Source: an uncultured Acidobacteriota bacterium
Lineage (GTDB): Bacteria > Acidobacteriota > UBA6911 > CAINFC01
Assembly (NCBI GenBank): GCA_903847975.1
Contig: CAINFC010000009.1
Coordinates: forward strand, 1-64,000
DNA: 64,000 nucleotides
Direction: 5' to 3'
Notes under the pieces: generated by a model
Databases searched by the model: none
What the model was told of the DNA's origin: nothing
The model's input: only the letters and a program-made list of their open reading frames with translations
Made by a program: the position numbers and the translations under genes
Shown here: in pieces, positions 5,852 to 63,224 of the stretch
Layout: the number at the start of each line of letters is the position of its first letter
How positions within the stretch are numbered: the first letter of the stretch is position 1

Positions 5852-5985
5852 ATGAAGGTGCAAAAAGTCTCGGAAGCCCTGCAAGGGCTTTAAACAAATC
5901 CGCCTACCCGGGGTAGCGCCTGTGCGGCGCAACCCCGGGCTGTGATCCGGAACCCCCATGGGTTCTCGACTTTTTGCACCTTGAT
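5852..5985. mobile_element. MITE-like 134-bp element with inverted ends
   Basis: The ends are perfect 15-bp inverted repeats: AAGGTGCAAAAAGTC at 5855-5869 and its reverse complement at 5968-5982. Three further bases (GAT/ATC) outside also pair after one mismatch. Inside are an AAGCCCT/AGGGCTT hairpin (about 5874-5890) and a CCCGGGGT...ACCCCGGG stem with a GGCGC inner stem (5908-5939). The right half is nearly identical to 177-262 of the window. It carries no gene. It ends 16 bases before the start codon of the esterase gene, so it occupies that gene's upstream region. Confidence 0.7.
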
Positions 5986-21025: not shown

Positions 21026-23173
21026 ATGAACCGGGTGACGGCTCTGGTACTTTTCTTTCTGCTGATTCCGGCCCCGCTCCCGGCTGCGGCTGCGGCGCGG
21101 ACGCTCGAATGGACCCGGGTTCTGCCCGGCATCTGGTCGGCAGCGGTAGGCCGTCCGGATTCCGTCCATTTCCTCCAGACCGCCGGGGTGTCCCCCAGGC
21201 GCGAAGCTCTCGAAGCCATGGGGGATGTACCCTGTCCCCTGGAGCCCGCGCTCATCCGCGGCGAGGTCCGGGAAGGGAAAACCCTCCTGCATTTTCCTCT
21301 GGAAAAAGGGGAGCGGATTTTCGGACTGGGCCTCCATTTCAAAACGGTCGAGCAGCGCGGCCGGATCCTGCGGCTGCACATGGACCACTACGGCGGCACG
21401 GACAACGGCCGCACCCATGCCCCGGTTCCTTTTTATGTTTCCTCACGGGGCTACGGCATCTGGATCAATTCCGCACGCTATATCGATATATGGGTAGGAA
21501 CGGCGGTCCGCAAGGACAGCCGCCATCCGCCGGAGGTCCGCGACCGAAACACCGACCGGCAGTGGACCGCCAGGCCCTACTCGGACAACGTCGAGGCGGT
21601 CATCGCCGCCGAGGGGGCTGAAGTCTATCTTTTCGGCGGGCCCGGCCTGCTGGACGTCGTCCGCCGCTACAACCTTTTCCAGGGCGGAGGGTGCCTGCCG
21701 CCACGCTGGGGGCTGGGTTTCTGGCATCGGGTGCCGACGCTCTACACCGCCGACCAGGTGCGCGGCGAGGTGGAGGAGTTCGCCCGCCACGGATTTCCTC
21801 TCTCGGTGATCGGGTTGGAGCCCGGCTGGCAAAGCCGGTCCTACCCCTGCACCTACGAATGGGATCGGGGCCGCTTCCCGGACCCGGCCGGGCTGGCCGC
21901 CGATTTGAAGCGGCGCGGGATTTATCTCAACCTCTGGCTCAATCCCTACATTTCGCCGCAATCGGAGCTCTTCCAGCCCATCGAGCCCTACACCGCATCG
22001 CACACGGTCTGGGCCGGGCTGGTTCCCGACTATTCCCGGAAAGAAGTCCAGGAGCTGCTCGGCCGCCATTTCCGGAAGCACCACCTGGACCAGGGAGTCA
22101 GCGGCTACAAGATGGATGAAAATGACGGGTACGACAGCTGGCTCTGGCCCGACAGCGCCGAATTTCCCTCCGGAATTTCCGCGGAGCAGATGCGGACACT
22201 GTACGGGGTGATGATGCAGAAGCTGGCCACCTCCCTGTTCCGGGAGCGGAACCTGCGGACCTACGGGCTGGTGCGGGCCACCAACTCCGGTGCCGCCTCC
22301 TTTCCTTTCGTGGTCTACAACGATTATTACAGTCACCCGGATTTCATTACCGCCCTGGTCAACAGCTCGTTCCTCGGGGTGCTGTGGACCCCGGAAGTCC
22401 GCAGCTCGCGCACCGCGGAGGAATGGCTGCGGCGGATGCAGAGCGTCTGCTTTTCTCCGCTGGCCATGCTCAACGCCTGGTCGGACGGGACCAAGCCCTG
22501 GTCCTTCCCCGAGGTGGAGACCCAGGTGCGGGAGATCGCCCAGCTGCGCCTCCGCCTGCTCCCCTATCTTTACAACTGCTTTGCCGACTATGCCTTTTAC
22601 GGTACGCCGCCTGTCCGGGCGATGAACCTGGACCCGGGATTTGCCGCCGCCGCCGAGGAGGTAGCCGGCGCAGTGGACTCCTCCGCGAACCCCTATGGCG
22701 AGGCGATCCGCCGGGAAATCAAAGACCAGTTCCTGCTGGGGGATTCGCTGCTGGTGGCCCCGCTCTTTGCCGGCCAGAGCCAGCGGAAAGTCATTCTCCC
22801 CAAGGGGAAGTGGTATGATTTTTATACCGGCCGTCCGGCCGGCGACGGGGAGATCCTGACCGTCGCTCCCGGCCTGGACCGCATCCCGGTGTATGTGCGC
22901 GACGGCGGGATCATCCCCATGCTGGAGGAGGGCCTGCGGATTCCGGACGGCAAAGTACCTCTGGAAATCCGGCACTACGGCAGCAAGGATGCCGTCTACG
23001 AGCTGTACGACGACGACGGGTCGAGCTATGATTATGAAAAAGGAAAATTCAGCCGGATCCGCCTGGCGGTGACCGGGGGGGAATCCGGAGAGAAAAAAGG
23101 GAGCGTGGCTGTCCCCAAGGGATCCCGGCTGTGGTCGTACAGCGATTTTCGATGGGTGTTCCCATCGAATTGA
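21026..23173 (+). CDS. Secreted glycoside hydrolase family 31
   Basis: A 715-residue exported enzyme (signal peptide MNRVTALVLFFLLIPAPLPA) of the alpha-glucosidase/alpha-xylosidase family. It has an N-terminal beta-sandwich, then a barrel from about residue 225 (PPRWGLGFWHRVPTLYTADQV). The nucleophile is Asp364 in GYKMDEND. At the usual acid/base site the sequence reads GVLWTPEVRSS (E457) rather than the common WxGD, so Glu may serve. The C-terminal sandwich ends YDDDGSSYDYEKGKFSRIRL. It lies 30 bases after dxs. Its 3-prime end (23025-23170) is repeated in degraded form at 23313-23388 and 25490-25528. Confidence 0.92.
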   Translation: MNRVTALVLFFLLIPAPLPAAAAARTLEWTRVLPGIWSAAVGRPDSVHFLQTAGVSPRREALEAMGDVPCPLEPALIRGEVREGKTLLHFPLEKGERIFGLGLHFKTVEQRGRILRLHMDHYGGTDNGRTHAPVPFYVSSRGYGIWINSARYIDIWVGTAVRKDSRHPPEVRDRNTDRQWTARPYSDNVEAVIAAEGAEVYLFGGPGLLDVVRRYNLFQGGGCLPPRWGLGFWHRVPTLYTADQVRGEVEEFARHGFPLSVIGLEPGWQSRSYPCTYEWDRGRFPDPAGLAADLKRRGIYLNLWLNPYISPQSELFQPIEPYTASHTVWAGLVPDYSRKEVQELLGRHFRKHHLDQGVSGYKMDENDGYDSWLWPDSAEFPSGISAEQMRTLYGVMMQKLATSLFRERNLRTYGLVRATNSGAASFPFVVYNDYYSHPDFITALVNSSFLGVLWTPEVRSSRTAEEWLRRMQSVCFSPLAMLNAWSDGTKPWSFPEVETQVREIAQLRLRLLPYLYNCFADYAFYGTPPVRAMNLDPGFAAAAEEVAGAVDSSANPYGEAIRREIKDQFLLGDSLLVAPLFAGQSQRKVILPKGKWYDFYTGRPAGDGEILTVAPGLDRIPVYVRDGGIIPMLEEGLRIPDGKVPLEIRHYGSKDAVYELYDDDGSSYDYEKGKFSRIRLAVTGGESGEKKGSVAVPKGSRLWSYSDFRWVFPSN

Positions 23174-23193: not shown

Positions 23194-23273
23194 TGTGCGG
23201 AAACGGCGGATGGAACAGAGGAAAGCCGATCCGGCCCGCTGTGATCCATAAAATCCGCTGTTTCCGTGTAACC
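23194..23273. repeat. Dispersed palindromic repeat, copy A
   Basis: Left arm CGGAAACGGCGGAT (23198-23211), right arm ATCCGCTGTTTCCG (23253-23266) followed by TGTAAC. The arms pair with one G-U wobble. The interior is close to copies B and C. A pyrimidine/T-rich tract follows at 23286-23312. Confidence 0.8.
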
Positions 23274-23312: not shown

Positions 23313-23388
23313 CTATATGATTCAAAGGAAAATCGGACCGGGTCCGGAGAGAGGAAAGGGCGCTTGGCTGTTCCCCAAGGCTCCCCTG
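23313..23388 (+). pseudogene. Degraded copy of the GH31 3-prime end (copy 2)
   Basis: This segment aligns to the end of the GH31 gene, with the part matching roughly 23056-23083 deleted. Shared blocks include AAAGGAAAAT, TCCGGAGAGA, AAAGGG, TGGCTGT and CCCCAAGG. In one frame it still reads GERKGRLAVPQGS, against GEKKGSVAVPKGS in the intact enzyme. A different frame of the same bases now supplies the first codons of the FAD oxidoreductase gene. Confidence 0.75.
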
Positions 23389-25338: not shown

Positions 25339-25363
25339 GCAATTGGGGGGCTCCATTCCCGGT

Positions 25364-25443
25364 TGCACGGAAACGGCGGATGGAACGGAAAAAAGCCGAT
25401 CCGATCCGCGGTAATCTGCAGAATCCGCTGTTTCCGTGTAACT
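25364..25443. repeat. Dispersed palindromic repeat, copy B
   Basis: Left arm CGGAAACGGCGGAT (25368-25381), right arm ATCCGCTGTTTCCG (25423-25436) then TGTAAC. As in copy A the arms pair with one G-U. It begins shortly after the FAD gene and is followed at 25455-25467 by GTACACCCGCTTT, which also precedes copy A at 23174-23186. Confidence 0.8.
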
Positions 25444-25489
25444 TTCGGAAACCGGTACACCCGCTTTCTACGCTTTTTTTGCGGTTTGG

Positions 25490-27444: not shown

Positions 27445-28598
27445 GCAGCCATTCGAACCATCCTTCTTCGCCGGAACCGACGGGAGTCCGCTATTTTTCC
27501 GGCGCCTTTTTCCTGATCTGCTTTGCCCTGATCCTCTACGGCTTTTACCGGATCATCATCCCATACATGGTTCCGCTCACCTGGGCGCTGATCCTGTCCT
27601 CGGTGTTTTTTCCCCTCTACCTGCGGCTGAACCGGCGGCTCGGGGAGCGGTCCTCCTGGAGCGCCCTGCTGATGGTGGTGCTGATCTCCGTCCTGATCAT
27701 CCTGCCGATTCTGTGGATGATCCTGATGCTGGCCGGGCAGTCCATCGACGCCTACCACCGTGTGGAAACCACGCTCAAATCGGGGATCGACCTGGAGCAG
27801 TACCTGAAAAAAAGCCCGAAGCTTTCCGGGCTTTGGGAGCAGCTCAACCTGTGGGTCCGCCTCGACCAGATCGACTGGCGGGCCGCGCTGCTGCAGGGCC
27901 TGAACGCCATCAGCGCCTTCCTGGTCGACCAGAGCACCAGCCTGCTGGGGCAGCTGGCCGGTTTCATCTTCGACTTCCTGATCATGCTGACCGCCATGTA
28001 CTACTTTTTTCTGGACGGCCGGCGCATCGTGGCCTCCCTGAAGGAGCTGAGCCCCCTGCCGGACGACTACCAGGAGCAGCTGATCCGGCAGTTCCTGGAA
28101 GTCAGCCAGGCCACGCTGTACGGGAGCCTGATGACCGCCGTCTGTCAGGGCATTGCCGGCGGTCTGCTGTTTGCGCTGCTGGGAATTCCCGGGGCCCTGC
28201 TCTGGGGGGCGCTGATGGGTTTTCTTTCACTGATTCCGGCAGTGGGCTCCTTTCTGATCTGGATGCCGGCCGGCATGTACCAGTTGCTGGTCGGGGAGGC
28301 CTGGAAGGGCGCGGTGATCCTCTTTTTCGGGGTGACGGTGGTCAGCAGCCTGGATAATATCCTCAAGCCCTATTTCATCCGCGGGAAGGCCGACATGCAC
28401 GCCCTGCTGGTCTTTCTCAGCGCCTTCGGCGGCATACAGGTCTTCGGCTTCCTGGGCCTGGTTCTCGGACCTCTGGTCTGCGCCCTGTTCCTGACGTTTC
28501 TGGAGCTATACAAAATCGAATTCCAGCCCGCCCTGCGCAAGGCAGCCGATACGGAAACGCCGGCGGGAACGGATGAGGGCCGATCCGATCCGTCGTGA
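27441..28598 (+). CDS. AI-2E family (TqsA/PerM-like) permease
   Basis: A 385-residue inner-membrane protein. It has hydrophobic spans near residues 25-55 and 65-95, then a soluble region (about 100-170), then the spans FIFDFLIMLTAMYYFFLDG, GIAGGLLFALLGIPGALLWG, FLSLIPAVGSFLIWMPAG and the conserved DNILKPYFIRGKADMHALLV near the end. Family members export small molecules or act as Na+/H+ antiporters. The start overlaps the GT9 stop by four bases. The last sixteen or so codons (DTETPAGTDEGRSDPS) and the stop lie inside dispersed repeat copy C, so the repeat has replaced or extended the native C-terminus. Confidence 0.88.
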   Translation: MSSHSNHPSSPEPTGVRYFSGAFFLICFALILYGFYRIIIPYMVPLTWALILSSVFFPLYLRLNRRLGERSSWSALLMVVLISVLIILPILWMILMLAGQSIDAYHRVETTLKSGIDLEQYLKKSPKLSGLWEQLNLWVRLDQIDWRAALLQGLNAISAFLVDQSTSLLGQLAGFIFDFLIMLTAMYYFFLDGRRIVASLKELSPLPDDYQEQLIRQFLEVSQATLYGSLMTAVCQGIAGGLLFALLGIPGALLWGALMGFLSLIPAVGSFLIWMPAGMYQLLVGEAWKGAVILFFGVTVVSSLDNILKPYFIRGKADMHALLVFLSAFGGIQVFGFLGLVLGPLVCALFLTFLELYKIEFQPALRKAADTETPAGTDEGRSDPS

Positions 28599-28627
28599 TC
28601 CCTGATATCCGCTGGTTCCGCGTAACT
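28549..28627. repeat. Dispersed palindromic repeat, copy C
   Basis: The left part (from 28552, CGGAAACGCCGGCGG) is inside the permease gene, and the right arm ATCCGCTGGTTCCG (28607-28620) lies after its stop. The interior GCCGATCCGATCCG matches copy B. This copy is the most diverged in its arms. Confidence 0.7.
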
Positions 28628-28657
28628 TTCCGACCCCAACCGGAGGAATCCCACGCC

Positions 28658-39794: not shown

Positions 39795-39821
39795 AGAATG
39801 GTTTCCGCCTGATTTCAGAAA

Positions 39822-39876
39822 GTTACACGGAAACAGCGGATGGGACGGATGAAAGCGGATGTAATCTGAGAAATCC
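39822..39876. repeat. Dispersed palindromic repeat, copy D (right arm missing)
   Basis: The left arm with outer flank, GTTACACGGAAACAGCGGAT (39822-39841), is the exact reverse complement of the right arm plus flank of copies A and B. The interior (GGGACGGATGAAAGCGGATGTAATCTG) resembles copy B, but the right arm is lost. Confidence 0.7.
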
Positions 39877-46654: not shown

Positions 46655-46682
46655 TTCCGCCGCCCGGCCGCCCCTCCGGTTA

Positions 46683-46754
46683 AGCGGAAACAGCGGATTT
46701 TACGGATCCCGGCGGATCGGATCGGTCTGTCCCATCCGCTGTTTCCGTGTAAAC
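46683..46754. repeat. Dispersed palindromic repeat, copy E
   Basis: Perfect 14-bp arms CGGAAACAGCGGAT (46685-46698) and ATCCGCTGTTTCCG (46734-46747). The interior is inverted relative to copies A and B. AAAAATGGGTGTCCTT follows at 46757-46772. It lies in front of the phosphatase gene. Confidence 0.85.
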
Positions 46755-46795
46755 GAAAAAATGGGTGTCCTTATTTTAATTCTACTGGAGGCTTT

Positions 46796-48970
46796 ATGTT
46801 GAAAACGGGCTGGACCTTGCGGTCCTGGAGGCAGGCTCCTCTCTGGCGCTGCGGTATCCGGCGGAAGATTCTGATTGCCATGCTGGTGATTACCTCTCTG
46901 GCGCTGCTTCTTTTCCTTCTTCTGGCCTCCTGGGGTATTCGCAGCCTGGGGGGGTACGCGCTGCAGCGAAACCTGGGCCTGGGAAGCGATGCCATCCGTA
47001 TCAGCAAAACCGCCCTGCAGGAACAGGCGGAGCGGGGTCTACTGCATTTGGCGGAGAGCCAGGCGGACCTTTGCGATGCCGATTTTTACTATCACGAATC
47101 CGATGTCCGGGTTCTGGCGGAAGCAGTGAGCCTTCTTCTGGACGGCAGAGAAAAGAGTGTGTTGCCAAGTTCCCACACCGCCCGGCAGCGGCCGGCCGAT
47201 ACGGCCAACACTTCCGTGGTGCACATTCCGCAGGGGATTCCCGCCGCGGCTCTTGACCCGGCGATGGATTGGACGTCCGGCCTGGATTCCTTGACGCAGG
47301 GCTGGCTGGAAAGCGATGCTTTTCTGGCGGAAATCATGCTGGGCTTGGATTCCGGGCTGTTTCGCCGCCTTCCCTGGACCGACCGCCTGCCTGCCGATTA
47401 CGATGCCCGCCATCGGGAATGGTACCGCCGGGCCGTCGAAACCCGAAAACCCAGCTGGAGTGGCCCCTTTATCGATGCCGAGACCGGGGACCTGCAGATT
47501 TCCTGCTCTCAGCCCGTCCTCAGGAACGATCGAGTTGTCGCCGTCGTGGGGATCAGCATGTGGGTAAAAACCATCGCCGAGCGGATTATGAAAGTGAATT
47601 CGACCGCCACGGCCCAGGCTGTTTTGGTCGACCATCAGCAACGGGTACTGGCCCGCCGGGGCATGACCGCCAGCAGTAGGCTCTGGTCGGATCCCCAGAA
47701 GCTGGAAATTTTTCGCTTCGATCGCCAGGAACAGCAAACTGCCTTGATGGGATACGTGACGGCGAGCAAACCGGGCGTGCTGCGGGGGGAGATTCATGGG
47801 AAGGATACCCTGGTATCCTGCGCACCGGTCAAATCGACCGATTGGGTGGTTCTGGTGCTGCTGCCCATGGAGGTCATTTACGCTCCCATGCTGCCGCCGG
47901 AAAAAGCCATTCAGGAGGCCACCCGGCAGGTCAGCGAGCGGATGGAAAACCGGATCCTTTTTGTCACCGTGCTGCTGACTCTTTTTTTTCTGGCGATGCT
48001 GGTTCTGGTCCTGCTTCTCTCCGGCAGAATCGCCAGCCAGATTACGGCCCCCCTGATTCAGTTGGATACGGGAGCCAAGGCCATCGGATCGGGGGCCCTG
48101 GACTATCGTATTCCCATCCCCGATTCGGGAGATGAAGTGGAAGCTCTGGCTCGAACCTTCGAAAAGATGACCGAAGACCTGCGCATTTACGTGCGCAACC
48201 TGACCGAGACAACCGCCGCCAAAGAACGCATGGAAAGCGAGCTCCACGTGGCTTACGAAGTGCAGACCAGCCTGCTGCCGAAAATCTTTCCCCCCTTTCC
48301 GGAGCGCCGGGAATTCGAGATTTATGCCCGCATGGATCCGGCCAAGGAGGTGGGCGGAGATTTTTTCGACTTTTTCCTCCTGGGGGAAAACCGTCTCTGC
48401 TTCCTGATTGCCGATGTTTCCGACAAAGGAGTTCCCGCGGCGCTTTACATGATGGTGGCCAAGATTCTTCTGAAAGCCGAAGCCGGGGAGCAGGCCGATC
48501 CGGGAGAGATTCTCGAGAAGGTCAATCGGGTACTGGCCAACAACAACGAAAACTGCATGTTCGTCACCGTCTTCTGCTGTATTCTGGATTTCCGCTCGGG
48601 CGCCGTGGAGTTTGCCAATGCCGGCCACAATCCGCCGGCGCACTACCGTCGGGGGCAGAACTTTCTCTATCTCCGCCCCAAGGTAGGATTCGTGCTGGGG
48701 CCCCTGGCCGATTCCCGATATGAAACCGAAACCCTGCAGCTGCAGCCGGGCGACTATTTGTTTCTTTATACCGACGGTGTTACGGAGGCCAGGAGCCGAG
48801 CGGAAGGCCTGTTCGGGGAGTCAAGGCTCCTGGATGCCCTGAGCCGGCAGGAACCGGAAAGCGCCGTCTCCCTGGTGCAAAGGATCCGCGCGGAGGTGGA
48901 GCGGCATTCCCATGGCGTGCCCCAGTCGGACGACATGACCCTGCTGGCCCTTAAATTCAACGGCCTATAA
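46796..48970 (+). CDS. Membrane sensor PP2C-type phosphatase (RsbU-like)
   Basis: A 724-residue inner-membrane signal protein. The first span (ILIAMLVITSLALLLFLLLA) and the second near residue 395 (ILFVTVLLTLFFLAMLVLVL) enclose a double-CACHE-type sensor with YDARHREWYRRAVETRKPSW and VVAVVGISMWV. A HAMP linker follows (LDTGAKAIGSGALDYRIPI). Then comes a coiled region and a SpoIIE/PP2C domain: MDPAKEVGGDFFDFF and LIADVSDKGVPAALYM (metal Asp), FANAGHNPP and LFLYTDGVTEARS. Such enzymes dephosphorylate STAS antagonists, and two STAS genes and a kinase gene lie in the convergent operon. GGAGG precedes ATG 46796. Confidence 0.93.
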   Translation: MLKTGWTLRSWRQAPLWRCGIRRKILIAMLVITSLALLLFLLLASWGIRSLGGYALQRNLGLGSDAIRISKTALQEQAERGLLHLAESQADLCDADFYYHESDVRVLAEAVSLLLDGREKSVLPSSHTARQRPADTANTSVVHIPQGIPAAALDPAMDWTSGLDSLTQGWLESDAFLAEIMLGLDSGLFRRLPWTDRLPADYDARHREWYRRAVETRKPSWSGPFIDAETGDLQISCSQPVLRNDRVVAVVGISMWVKTIAERIMKVNSTATAQAVLVDHQQRVLARRGMTASSRLWSDPQKLEIFRFDRQEQQTALMGYVTASKPGVLRGEIHGKDTLVSCAPVKSTDWVVLVLLPMEVIYAPMLPPEKAIQEATRQVSERMENRILFVTVLLTLFFLAMLVLVLLLSGRIASQITAPLIQLDTGAKAIGSGALDYRIPIPDSGDEVEALARTFEKMTEDLRIYVRNLTETTAAKERMESELHVAYEVQTSLLPKIFPPFPERREFEIYARMDPAKEVGGDFFDFFLLGENRLCFLIADVSDKGVPAALYMMVAKILLKAEAGEQADPGEILEKVNRVLANNNENCMFVTVFCCILDFRSGAVEFANAGHNPPAHYRRGQNFLYLRPKVGFVLGPLADSRYETETLQLQPGDYLFLYTDGVTEARSRAEGLFGESRLLDALSRQEPESAVSLVQRIRAEVERHSHGVPQSDDMTLLALKFNGL

Positions 48971-48996
48971 TCTCTTCACTCATCCGTCTACGATTC

Positions 48997-49037
48997 AGGA
49001 AATGCCGATGCGCAGCGACTTCCCGGTGTATCCGCTG
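48997..49037 (+). pseudogene. 3-prime remnant of a DUF4143-type ATPase gene
   Basis: Thirty-nine of 41 bases match 63130-63170, the end of the intact ATPase gene (protein EMxMRSDFPVYPL). Nothing upstream matches. The fragment runs straight into the right arm of the dispersed repeat at 49030-49050. Confidence 0.75.
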
Positions 49038-49050
49038 CTTGCGTGTAACC
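49030..49050 (+). repeat. Dispersed palindromic repeat, right half only (copy G)
   Basis: ATCCGCTGCTTGCGTGTAACC differs by two bases from the right arm and flank of the intact copies. It is followed by a T-rich tract like that after copies A and F. Confidence 0.55.
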
Positions 49051-49072
49051 TTTTTCTTGCTTGTTTCTCGTT

Positions 49073-50023
49073 CTACCGGCCGGCCGTGGGGACGGCCAGG
49101 CGGAAGCCGAGCCCGCTGCCCCTCTCCGCCGGGTCGTGGATCAGGCGCGCCGCCGCCCGGATTCCGAGGTAGTTGCGATTCCAGCTGCCGCCGCGGATCA
49201 CCCGGCCGGTGCCTGTCGCCGGACCCTGGGGATTGTTCTTCGGACTCTCTGCATAGTAGGTGCTGCTGTGAAAGTCGCCGGTCCACTGCCAGGCATTGCC
49301 GGTCATGTCGAACAGGCCCAGCCCGTTGGGGCGATAGCTCCCCACCGGTGCGGTGAAGGAATGGCGATCATCCTGGCTGCCGTCCTTCCAGGCGGCATTG
49401 CAGCGCACGTCGCAGAAATTGGCGTACCGCCATAGCTCCTTGGCATCGTCGAACCCGGCATAGCGCTCTTTTTTTCCGCCGCTTCGGGCGGCATATTCCC
49501 ATTCCGCCTCGGTCGGCAGGCGGTAATTTTGTCCCGTTTCCTTGTTCAGCCATTTCAAATAGGCCTGGGAATCATTCCAGCTGAGGCATACGGCCGGATG
49601 GTTATCCTCCTGCGGAAATCCCGGATTCCGCCAGGACAGCCCGGCAACACGCCCCCACCCCTGGCTGTTAAAAAAGGTGCAGCCGTCGCCCTTCTCCGCC
49701 TCGGTGCGATAGCCGGTGGAATCCGCGAACCTCCGGAAATGAGCCACGGTCAGCGGTGTGGCGCTCAGGGAAAAGCCGGGCAGGCAAACGGTGTGGACCG
49801 GTAATTCCTGCTTTTCCCCCTCGCCGAAAGTATCTCCCATTTCGAAGCAGCCTTCCGGAACGGCAACGAATTTCAGCCCCTCCAGGGGCCCGGCCGGAGC
49901 CGGCTTTTGCTTTTCCTGCGCGGATAGGTTGCAGAAGCAAAGCGGGAGAAGGGCCAGGGAGAGGCATAAAAGCCCCGACACTTTTCGGATGGAGGAAAAA
50001 AACCGGGAAAATCGGCGCATCAT
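49073..50023 (-). CDS. Secreted formylglycine-generating-enzyme-like (SUMF1) protein
   Basis: A 316-residue exported protein (signal segment VSGLLCLSLALLPLCFCNLSA) of the FGE-sulfatase family. VAVPEGCFEMGDTFGEGEKQ starts the domain and YRLPTEAEWEYAARSGG is the diagnostic motif. GLGLFDMTGNAWQWTGDF and VIRGGSWNRNYLGIRAAAR complete it. No sulfatase lies in the window, so a substrate-binding or structural role is as likely as formylglycine formation. The cysteines seen are not in the usual active pair. ATG 50023 follows AAGGAGC. It is the last gene of the minus-strand operon that carries the RsbW and STAS genes, 31 bases after the kinase gene. Confidence 0.88.
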   Translation of the reverse strand: MMRRFSRFFSSIRKVSGLLCLSLALLPLCFCNLSAQEKQKPAPAGPLEGLKFVAVPEGCFEMGDTFGEGEKQELPVHTVCLPGFSLSATPLTVAHFRRFADSTGYRTEAEKGDGCTFFNSQGWGRVAGLSWRNPGFPQEDNHPAVCLSWNDSQAYLKWLNKETGQNYRLPTEAEWEYAARSGGKKERYAGFDDAKELWRYANFCDVRCNAAWKDGSQDDRHSFTAPVGSYRPNGLGLFDMTGNAWQWTGDFHSSTYYAESPKNNPQGPATGTGRVIRGGSWNRNYLGIRAAARLIHDPAERGSGLGFRLAVPTAGR

Positions 50024-50054
50024 GGTGCTCCTTCTTTGAATTAAAATCGGGAAA

Positions 50055-50471
50055 TCATCGGCGCATGACCAGGATATTGCGATTGCGCTCCCCGGCATAT
50101 TCGTAGTCGAACCGGTCGACCCCCTCCATCACCATATAAAGCCCCAGCCCGCCGATTGCCCGCTCTTCCAGCGGCCGCTCCAGTTGATCTCTGGAAGGGA
50201 CCGCCCGACTCCGCGGGTCGAAGGGGATGCCCGAATCTTCCAGTACGATCCGCAGCTCCGAAGGGTCCACCTCCGCGGAGACGACCAGATCGCCCGAACG
50301 GCCGGCCTCCTCGTACCCGTGGGTGATGATGTTGGTGGCGATTTCGTCCACAGCCAGACGCAGCCGGTAATCCGCCTCCGGGCTGAGACCGGCCTGACGG
50401 GCCATCTCGCCGACAAATTGCCGCAATCCGGCCAGCTCATCGAGATGAGCGGCAAAGACACGCCGGGTCAT
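50055..50471 (-). CDS. RsbW-type serine kinase / anti-sigma factor
   Basis: A 138-residue cytoplasmic GHKL ATPase. The N-box is LAVDEIATNIITHGY (N47). G1 is VLEDSGIPFDP (D79), and G2 is IGGLGLYMV (about 106-114). These small HATPase_c_2 proteins phosphorylate STAS antagonists on Ser/Thr and, when free, bind a sigma factor or other target. No sigma-factor gene is in the window. It follows a STAS gene by six bases on the same strand, the classic rsbV-rsbW arrangement. The RsbU-like phosphatase across the convergent junction would reverse its action. Confidence 0.93.
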   Translation of the reverse strand: MTRRVFAAHLDELAGLRQFVGEMARQAGLSPEADYRLRLAVDEIATNIITHGYEEAGRSGDLVVSAEVDPSELRIVLEDSGIPFDPRSRAVPSRDQLERPLEERAIGGLGLYMVMEGVDRFDYEYAGERNRNILVMRR

Positions 50472-61832: not shown

Positions 61833-61849
61833 GAACCCGTTTTCCGGTT

Positions 61850-61927
61850 GCGCGGAAACGGCGGATCGGATCGGCTGTGATCCGTAAAATCCGCCGTTTC
61901 CGTGTAACCGGAAAAATGGGTGTCCTT
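61850..61927. repeat. Dispersed palindromic repeat, copy F with right flank
   Basis: Perfect 14-bp arms CGGAAACGGCGGAT (61853-61866) and ATCCGCCGTTTCCG (61889-61902). The interior is shorter than in A and B. AAAAATGGGTGTCCTT (61912-61927) follows. Compared with copy E, both members of one pair have changed, so pairing is kept. The rest of 61928-62036 is AT-rich and probably holds the ATPase promoter. Confidence 0.85.
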
Positions 61928-62036
61928 CTTTTTGTTTCCTTCTTTTTGTTTCTGTTTTTCCTGGTAGCTTATTTCTAAAATATGTATTATGATTGTTGTA
62001 CTGGCATATTACATAACTTCATCGTAAACGGAAGAT

Positions 62037-63224
62037 ATGATTGATAGAAAGATTGAACCCGTGCTGGTGAATCTGGCCCGGCAGTATCCGGTTGTGACGA
62101 TTACCGGACCCCGGCAGAGCGGTAAGACCACGTTATGCCGAAAGGTGTTTGCCGGATTGAAGTATGTCAATCTCGAAGCGCCGGATACGCGCATGTTTGC
62201 CAGGGAAGATCCCCGCGGATTTTTGGCCGCCAACAGCGGTGGGGTCATTCTCGATGAGATCCAGCGGGCTCCTGATCTTCTTTCCTATATCCAGACCATG
62301 GTTGACCTGGACGACCGCCCCGGTCAATTCATTCTGACAGGCAGCCAGCAGTTTGAGGTCATGAACGTCATCAGCCAGTCGCTGGCCGGCAGGACGGCAC
62401 TCCTCAAGCTGCTGCCGCTTTCTTTTCCTGAGCTGAGGCAGACGCTTCCAGCCGACATGGATCGTCTGATGATTACAGGGTTTTATCCGCGGATCCACGA
62501 CCGGCAGCTGAACCCTTCGCAGGCCCTGGGAGATTATCTGGAAACATACGTGGAACGGGATCTTCGCCAGCTGGCCGTGTTGAAAGACCTGTCCCTTTTT
62601 GAAAAATTTCTGAAGCTTTGCGCCGGCCGTGTGGCCCAGCTGCTCAGCCTGCAGAGCCTCAGTAACGATGTGGGTGTATCTCATTCCACGGCGCGGGCCT
62701 GGCTGACGCTTCTGGAGGCAAGCTACATTGTCTTCCTCCTGCAACCCTGGCACGCCAGCGTCTCCAAGCGGTTGATCAAGTCGCCCAAACTGTATTTCTA
62801 CGACGTCGGCCTGGCGTCTTATCTCCTCGGGTTGACCCATGAATCGCAAATGAGTCGCGATCCGCTGCGCGGGAATCTTTTTGAAAATATGTTGATCCTT
62901 GAGGCGCTCAAACATCGCTACAATCTGGGTTTGCGAAACAACCTCTTTTTCTACCGGGAGAGCAACGGCAACGAGGTCGACCTGATCGCTGCCAGCGGAA
63001 GGGATATCCTGGCGATTGAAATCAAGTCTGCGGCAACGGTCAACCCGGACTTTTTCAAAGGCCTGCACCACTTTAAAAAAGCGGCCGGTTCCGGGCAAAA
63101 CGTCCGAGGCGCAATCGTGTATGGCGGCAAGGAAATGCAGATGCGCAGCGACTTCCCGGTGTACCCGCTGCGGCACTGCGAAGATCTGTGGAACGGGATC
63201 GATTCACCCGCAAGGAAGCCCTGA
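62037..63224 (+). CDS. AAA ATPase with DUF4143 domain
   Basis: A 395-residue protein of the AAA_14/DUF4143 group. Walker A is GPRQSGKTT (24-32), Walker B is GGVILDEIQ (D73/E74) and the sensor strand is FILTGSQQFE. The C-terminal DUF4143 part (KSPKLYFYDVGLASYLLG, then GNLFENMLILEALKH and FYRESNGNEVDLIAASG) has the restriction-endonuclease-like E-V-D-x...EIKSA core. Members often sit in defence or mobile islands, and their activity is unclear. GGAAG precedes ATG 62037. The last 41 bases of coding DNA recur as a remnant at 48997-49037. The neighbour downstream is a SNF2-type helicase. Confidence 0.93.
   Translation: MIDRKIEPVLVNLARQYPVVTITGPRQSGKTTLCRKVFAGLKYVNLEAPDTRMFAREDPRGFLAANSGGVILDEIQRAPDLLSYIQTMVDLDDRPGQFILTGSQQFEVMNVISQSLAGRTALLKLLPLSFPELRQTLPADMDRLMITGFYPRIHDRQLNPSQALGDYLETYVERDLRQLAVLKDLSLFEKFLKLCAGRVAQLLSLQSLSNDVGVSHSTARAWLTLLEASYIVFLLQPWHASVSKRLIKSPKLYFYDVGLASYLLGLTHESQMSRDPLRGNLFENMLILEALKHRYNLGLRNNLFFYRESNGNEVDLIAASGRDILAIEIKSAATVNPDFFKGLHHFKKAAGSGQNVRGAIVYGGKEMQMRSDFPVYPLRHCEDLWNGIDSPARKP

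Follow-up and report, generated by a model that had tools for sequence, protein, structure and literature searches.

The window, a stretch of 64,000 nucleotides from an uncultured Acidobacteriota bacterium, shows a short scar at 48997-49050, between a phosphatase gene and a SUMF1-like gene in convergent orientation. Read from the sequence, this scar appears on balance to be the 3' end left by a lost, near-identical copy of the DUF4143 ATPase gene found at 62 kb, fused to half of a dispersed repeat by two deletions. The remnant itself adds one more case to a known class, the ordinary pseudogene end. Like the pseudogene remnants of transient horizontally acquired genes, it is a short piece of a gene's 3' end in a genome that also has intact and truncated paralogues; unlike the usual remnants, it abuts a repeat arm exactly, with a microhomology at the join. 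The genes and fragments involved are:

46796-48970, + strand: dCache-HAMP-SpoIIE phosphatase gene (Pfam), left of the scar.
48997-49038, + strand: DUF4143 ATPase gene remnant (3' end), identical to 63130-63171 at 40 of 42 bases and reading EMPMRSDFPVYPL in the ATPase frame.
49030-49049, + strand: right arm of the dispersed palindrome, whose overlap with the remnant reads ATCCGCTG.
49073-50098, - strand: FGE-sulfatase (SUMF1-like) gene, right of the scar and convergent (Pfam 7e-59; open reading frame with an uncertain start, 50023 being possible).
62037-63224, + strand: intact AAA_14-DUF4143 ATPase gene of 395 aa (Pfam DUF4143 2.7e-49, AAA_14 4.4e-28).

The source segment 63130-63171 lies within the last tenth of the ATPase gene and ends 53 bp short of the end of its stop codon. 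The preliminary description gave the match as 39 of 41 bases (48997-49037 against 63130-63170) running into the right arm of the repeat; both observations hold, the match being one base longer. In a search of the 8.13-Mb genome the remnant matches its second copy with E = 3.9e-12, and neither a third copy nor anything else at E <0.1 is found, so that the 41-bp word is absent elsewhere, where its being common outside ATPase genes would have spoken against a gene remnant. With the whole ATPase gene and its flanks as query, the genome shows no gene-end piece besides the one in the scar. A chance or convergent similarity between the scar and the ATPase gene is excluded by this E value over the whole genome and has a practically negligible probability.

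The arm in the scar, ATCCGCTGCTTGCGTGTAAC, shows two mismatches to the arm consensus ATCCGCYGTTTCCGYGTAAC; the profile search of the repeat matches 49023-49052 weakly (E = 0.039), and about 0.0014 arms with up to three mismatches are expected by chance in a given 102-bp spacer. Remnant and arm have CCGCTG in common, which places the junction at a microhomology. The T in TATCCGCTG (TAT, against TAC in the gene) is a mismatch to the ATPase gene, agrees with the arm and is located inside the overlap; one of the two mismatches therefore belongs to the arm, and the part that is ATPase only is identical at 33 of 34 bases. The scar spacer does not fold in single-strand folding, and no further trace of a lost ATPase copy remains in its 102 bp. 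Two other arrangements of the scar were tried and rejected. In the first, the fragment interrupts a repeat whose left part would be TCATCCGTC in the left flank (48971-48996); this match is not significant, since at least as high a score is reached in 30 of 197 other windows behind stop codons. In the second, the remnant and its counterpart are attachment sites, 42-bp direct repeats bounding a 14-kb island; the ten genes checked between 50 and 61 kb are ordinary metabolic and signalling genes, and none of them is a recombinase.

The intact gene passes the Pfam cut-offs for AAA_14 (98.3 bits) and DUF4143 (167.4 bits), and is like the ATPases carrying PF13173 and PF13635 that PADLOC lists as candidate defence gene PDC-S01; its best PADLOC matches are the PDC-S01 profiles (E 3.1e-103), and by profile match it is a PDC-S01 candidate defence gene. 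The 49-kb scar differs from these AAA_14-DUF4143 ATPases, since only the gene tail survives, and for this reason it is taken to be without function. PDC-S01 is reported as the fourth most common defence across prokaryotes, and most PADLOC candidates of the PDC type still await experimental proof (PMC12988326). The gene probably lost at 49 kb would be of a mobile, possibly anti-viral type. Homologues of the window ATPase show a patchy distribution, with 56-79% identity in many phyla, and its closest paralogue in the genome shows 32% aa identity, i.e. there is no close one. A copy of the repeat is present only upstream of the gene, ending 121 bp before its start, close to the roughly 110 bases of the preliminary description, and none is found behind its stop codon. 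By eye, a TGCAATATGAAAGTT-n-AACTTGCAAATTGCA-like palindrome is located at 61977-62036, shortly 5' of the ATPase start, and similar palindromes precede the DUF4143 starts in many relatives (L063-L106); it is possibly an autoregulatory operator.

The dispersed repeat is a palindrome of roughly 75-90 nt with the consensus GTTACRCGGAAAC(A/G)GCGGAT ... ATCCGCYGTTTCCGYGTAAC. Genome-wide there are 110 arm sites with up to three mismatches, against one for a reversed-pattern control. Its neighbourhood was analysed in the window and 37 stretches picked for holding arms (about 0.4 Mb), which contain 82 merged elements at a profile E of 0.05 or less, about half of them two-armed. The two-armed copies form strong single-strand hairpins (z -4.8 to -10.9), and numerous copies lie 10-50 bp 3' of stop codons, often those of ordinary host genes. 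Copies in the window are:

23198-23273, no strand assigned: two-armed repeat (profile search, folding).
25359-25445, no strand assigned: two-armed repeat (profile search, folding).
28586-28629, + strand: repeat copy with one clear arm (profile search).
39819-39860, - strand: one-armed repeat copy (profile search).
46676-46756, no strand assigned: two-armed repeat directly 5' of the phosphatase gene (profile search, folding).
61840-61915, no strand assigned: two-armed copy of the palindrome, flanked by a SUMF1-like gene and the ATPase gene (single-strand DNA folding, -37.3 kcal/mol; z -10.9).

The repeat was not found in 37 other genomes of the class (up to one mismatch), and Rfam shows no matches in the window and five repeat loci. 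It is similar to REPIN/REP elements: extragenic and of high copy number, it has two short palindromic arms in inverted orientation, forms a strong hairpin and occurs with one arm or with two; for REPINs, single arms have been proposed to arise when DNA inserts into the element (PMC3116915). REPINs have a RAYT transposase, whereas no full-length RAYT gene was found in this genome, a draft from which a gene could be missing; its only Y1_Tnp match is truncated and covers positions 2-71 of 121. A copy of the repeat is found some 120 bp from this truncated Y1 (IS200-like) transposase (L220, C107:12941-13150). Near 23 kb, a 38-bp direct repeat (87%; 23084-23120 and 23343-23380) brackets the element at 23198-23273, one copy being in a gene end and the other in the start of the next gene. 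A second dispersed repeat family, CCCGGGGTAGCGCC...GGCGCAACCCCGGGCTGTGATCCGG, is present at 166-260 and 5885-5977, with matches in other stretches of those analysed.

The genome carries 23 DUF4143 matches, some of them truncated and two of them short (C22:5121-5450 and C276:8015-8266). A repeat is found no more than 250 bp from five DUF4143 genes, namely the intact one of the window, two on contig C239 and one on each of C273 and C5. Among 124 repeat-flanking genes 0.39 would be expected, assuming 7000 genes in the genome (Poisson 5e-5), whereas the excess over the other genes of the same stretches is not significant (5/124 against 2/193, p = 0.12). Contig C239 shows two different DUF4143 genes in tandem, each with a repeat 12-13 bp after its stop codon, and on C273 the repeat begins about 10 bp past the stop codon of the DUF4143 gene; the gene-then-arm order of the scar thus exists in intact form. 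A repeat on both sides, as a DUF4143 cassette would show, is not present at the window gene, and most of the 23 loci lack the repeat altogether; exceptions with two flanking copies are the second gene of C239 and the gene of C209, which sits between 42-bp direct repeats resembling the repeat core. Next to the repeat, on one side at least, lie the DUF4143 genes of C239 (twice), C273 and C5.

Two further cases show how these genes may move and be lost. Contigs C287 and C43 contain DUF4143 copies 93.7% identical to each other, with a similarity that begins about 94 bp ahead of the start and ends 7 bp past the stop codon. Contig C224 contains a second DUF4143 3'-end remnant (C224:15439-15718, L025:571-850), 280 bp long, 96% identical to the C22 gene and extending 28 bp beyond the stop codon of that gene. 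No repeat is found near the C287/C43 pair or the C224 remnant, and from these two cases the moving unit looks like a bare gene with its promoter region, and the repeat like a neighbour rather than a vehicle. The preliminary description proposed that ATPase cassettes flanked by the repeat came and went: the turnover agrees with the 23 matches, the remnants and the duplicate, while the repeat as carrier does not agree with the repeat-free pair and remnant, with the one-sided window gene or with the lack of repeats at most loci. As judged from these copies and fragments, DUF4143 genes come and go in this genome, which points to a genome where mobile ATPase genes repeatedly arrive and decay. Since the C224 remnant shows the reduction of a DUF4143 copy to its 3' end, the 49-kb scar is read as a further-decayed ATPase copy. 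DUF4143 genes (PDC-S01) belong to the most frequent candidate defence genes that prokaryotes have, and the scar suggests a fast turnover of them within a genome.

The same evidence bears on the cassettes of the preliminary description, if these are taken to have a repeat at either end and to enter and leave by recombination between repeats. This mechanism would suit the C239 tandem, where a repeat follows each gene, the core-like 42-bp direct repeats that bracket the gene of C209, and the arrays of contigs C162 and C253 with their interspersed repeats; however, such recombination takes the entire gene and leaves one whole repeat instead of a gene tail joined to half an arm. Past the stop codon of the intact window gene there is no repeat, and the duplicated unit of C287/C43 has none either, so that this mechanism is quite improbable for the scar. 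Because a clean excision from repeat to repeat removes the tail, the scar requires two deletions, both irregular, or else a copy made from the gene at a distance of 14 kb.

The arrays (L195 on contig C162, 1-9970; L203 on contig C253, 1-4360) are runs of genes that alternate with repeat arms. MNT/HEPN pairs and other genes of toxin-antitoxin type make up much of them, and their content includes a YoeB-like gene, an AAA ATPase and small genes of unknown kind. In their main runs, arms and genes are co-directed, with about 1 kb per unit. They are similar to integron cassette arrays, with short single-function genes mostly in one direction, each having a repeat behind it, at a spacing of about 1 kb. 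No integron integrase (IntI) scores over the cut-off in the genome, the best TIGR02249 match having 89.6 bits against a cut-off of 265. The attC sites of integrons have the ends RYYYAAC...GTTRRRY; by inspection, the repeat reads GTTACRC...GYGTAAC, the opposite end order. The repeat might be the recombination site of an unrecognised cassette system lacking an integron integrase, which would collect toxin-antitoxin-type and candidate defence genes (MNT/HEPN, GxxExxY, YoeB-like, PIN and DUF4143) into arrays, the scar being a broken cassette end; we regard this as improbable.

Under the reading of the scar as a decayed gene, a second, nearly identical copy of the 62-kb-type ATPase gene would have stood in + direction between the convergent phosphatase and SUMF1 genes, with its end adjoining a copy of the dispersed repeat. 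A first deletion would have removed all but the last ~95 bp of the reading frame, and a second one, across CCGCTG, the final codons together with the repeat's left part, fusing the tail to the right arm; the former full copy, both deletions and their order are what we infer from the remnant, the arm and the word they share. The ATPase gene would probably spread as a bare single-gene unit, and the repeat would mark tolerated intergenic sites and may serve as homology, rather than being a demonstrated vehicle. The fragment matches solely the intact gene, and its gene-then-arm order is that of the C239 tandem and of C273. Against this reading, a second 97% copy must be assumed, where the nearest paralogue shows 32% aa identity, and the only gene similar to it lies on the same contig at a distance of 14 kb, a position that suits local copying too. 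Among 396 genomes of the phylum, only a 38% relative of the phosphatase was found for comparison of the junction.

Local copying is possible, with a lower probability: ~35 bp of templated filler would have been copied from the ATPase gene 14 kb away during break repair at or near the repeat, or during repeat movement, and joined at CCGCTG, no full gene ever having stood there. A source-like gene is indeed nearby and is the sole match; on contig C273, 66 bp of an ordinary EamA transporter gene are found 2 bp away from an arm of the repeat and 1.6 kb from their source; and short gene pieces, among them GxxExxY-gene pieces on C162, are commoner near repeats, with 7 elements in a hand count, than at gene ends elsewhere (2/375 flanks). 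However, a random piece would seldom come from the last tenth of a gene in the orientation of the intact gene-arm pairs, and the longer 3' remnant on C224 exists without any repeat. The EamA piece (L204, contig C273, 3932-3996) is a 91% copy of an internal part of the transporter gene. We prefer the decayed gene over the filler because the piece is a gene end oriented as in the intact gene-arm pairs, an argument from position and not a proof.

As a lead, the scar suggests that DUF4143 genes move singly, leave 3' remnants and often lie between direct repeats. The literature search found no description of DUF4143 mobility or of such repeat arrays; the route of this movement thus appears undescribed in the literature searched, and the arrays on C162 and C253 would make it testable. 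This turnover and the arrays are the parts that a specialist might pursue. Strong direct repeats between the two flanks are present at 11 of 81 DUF4143 loci, from this genome and others, against 2 of 386 control windows (Fisher p 1.4e-7). In other genomes, direct repeats of 27-227 bp bracket the DUF4143 genes of L137, L088, L068, L079, L065, L131 and L082, and are possibly long target duplications; those of L137 and L088 are apparently pieces of the neighbouring gene.
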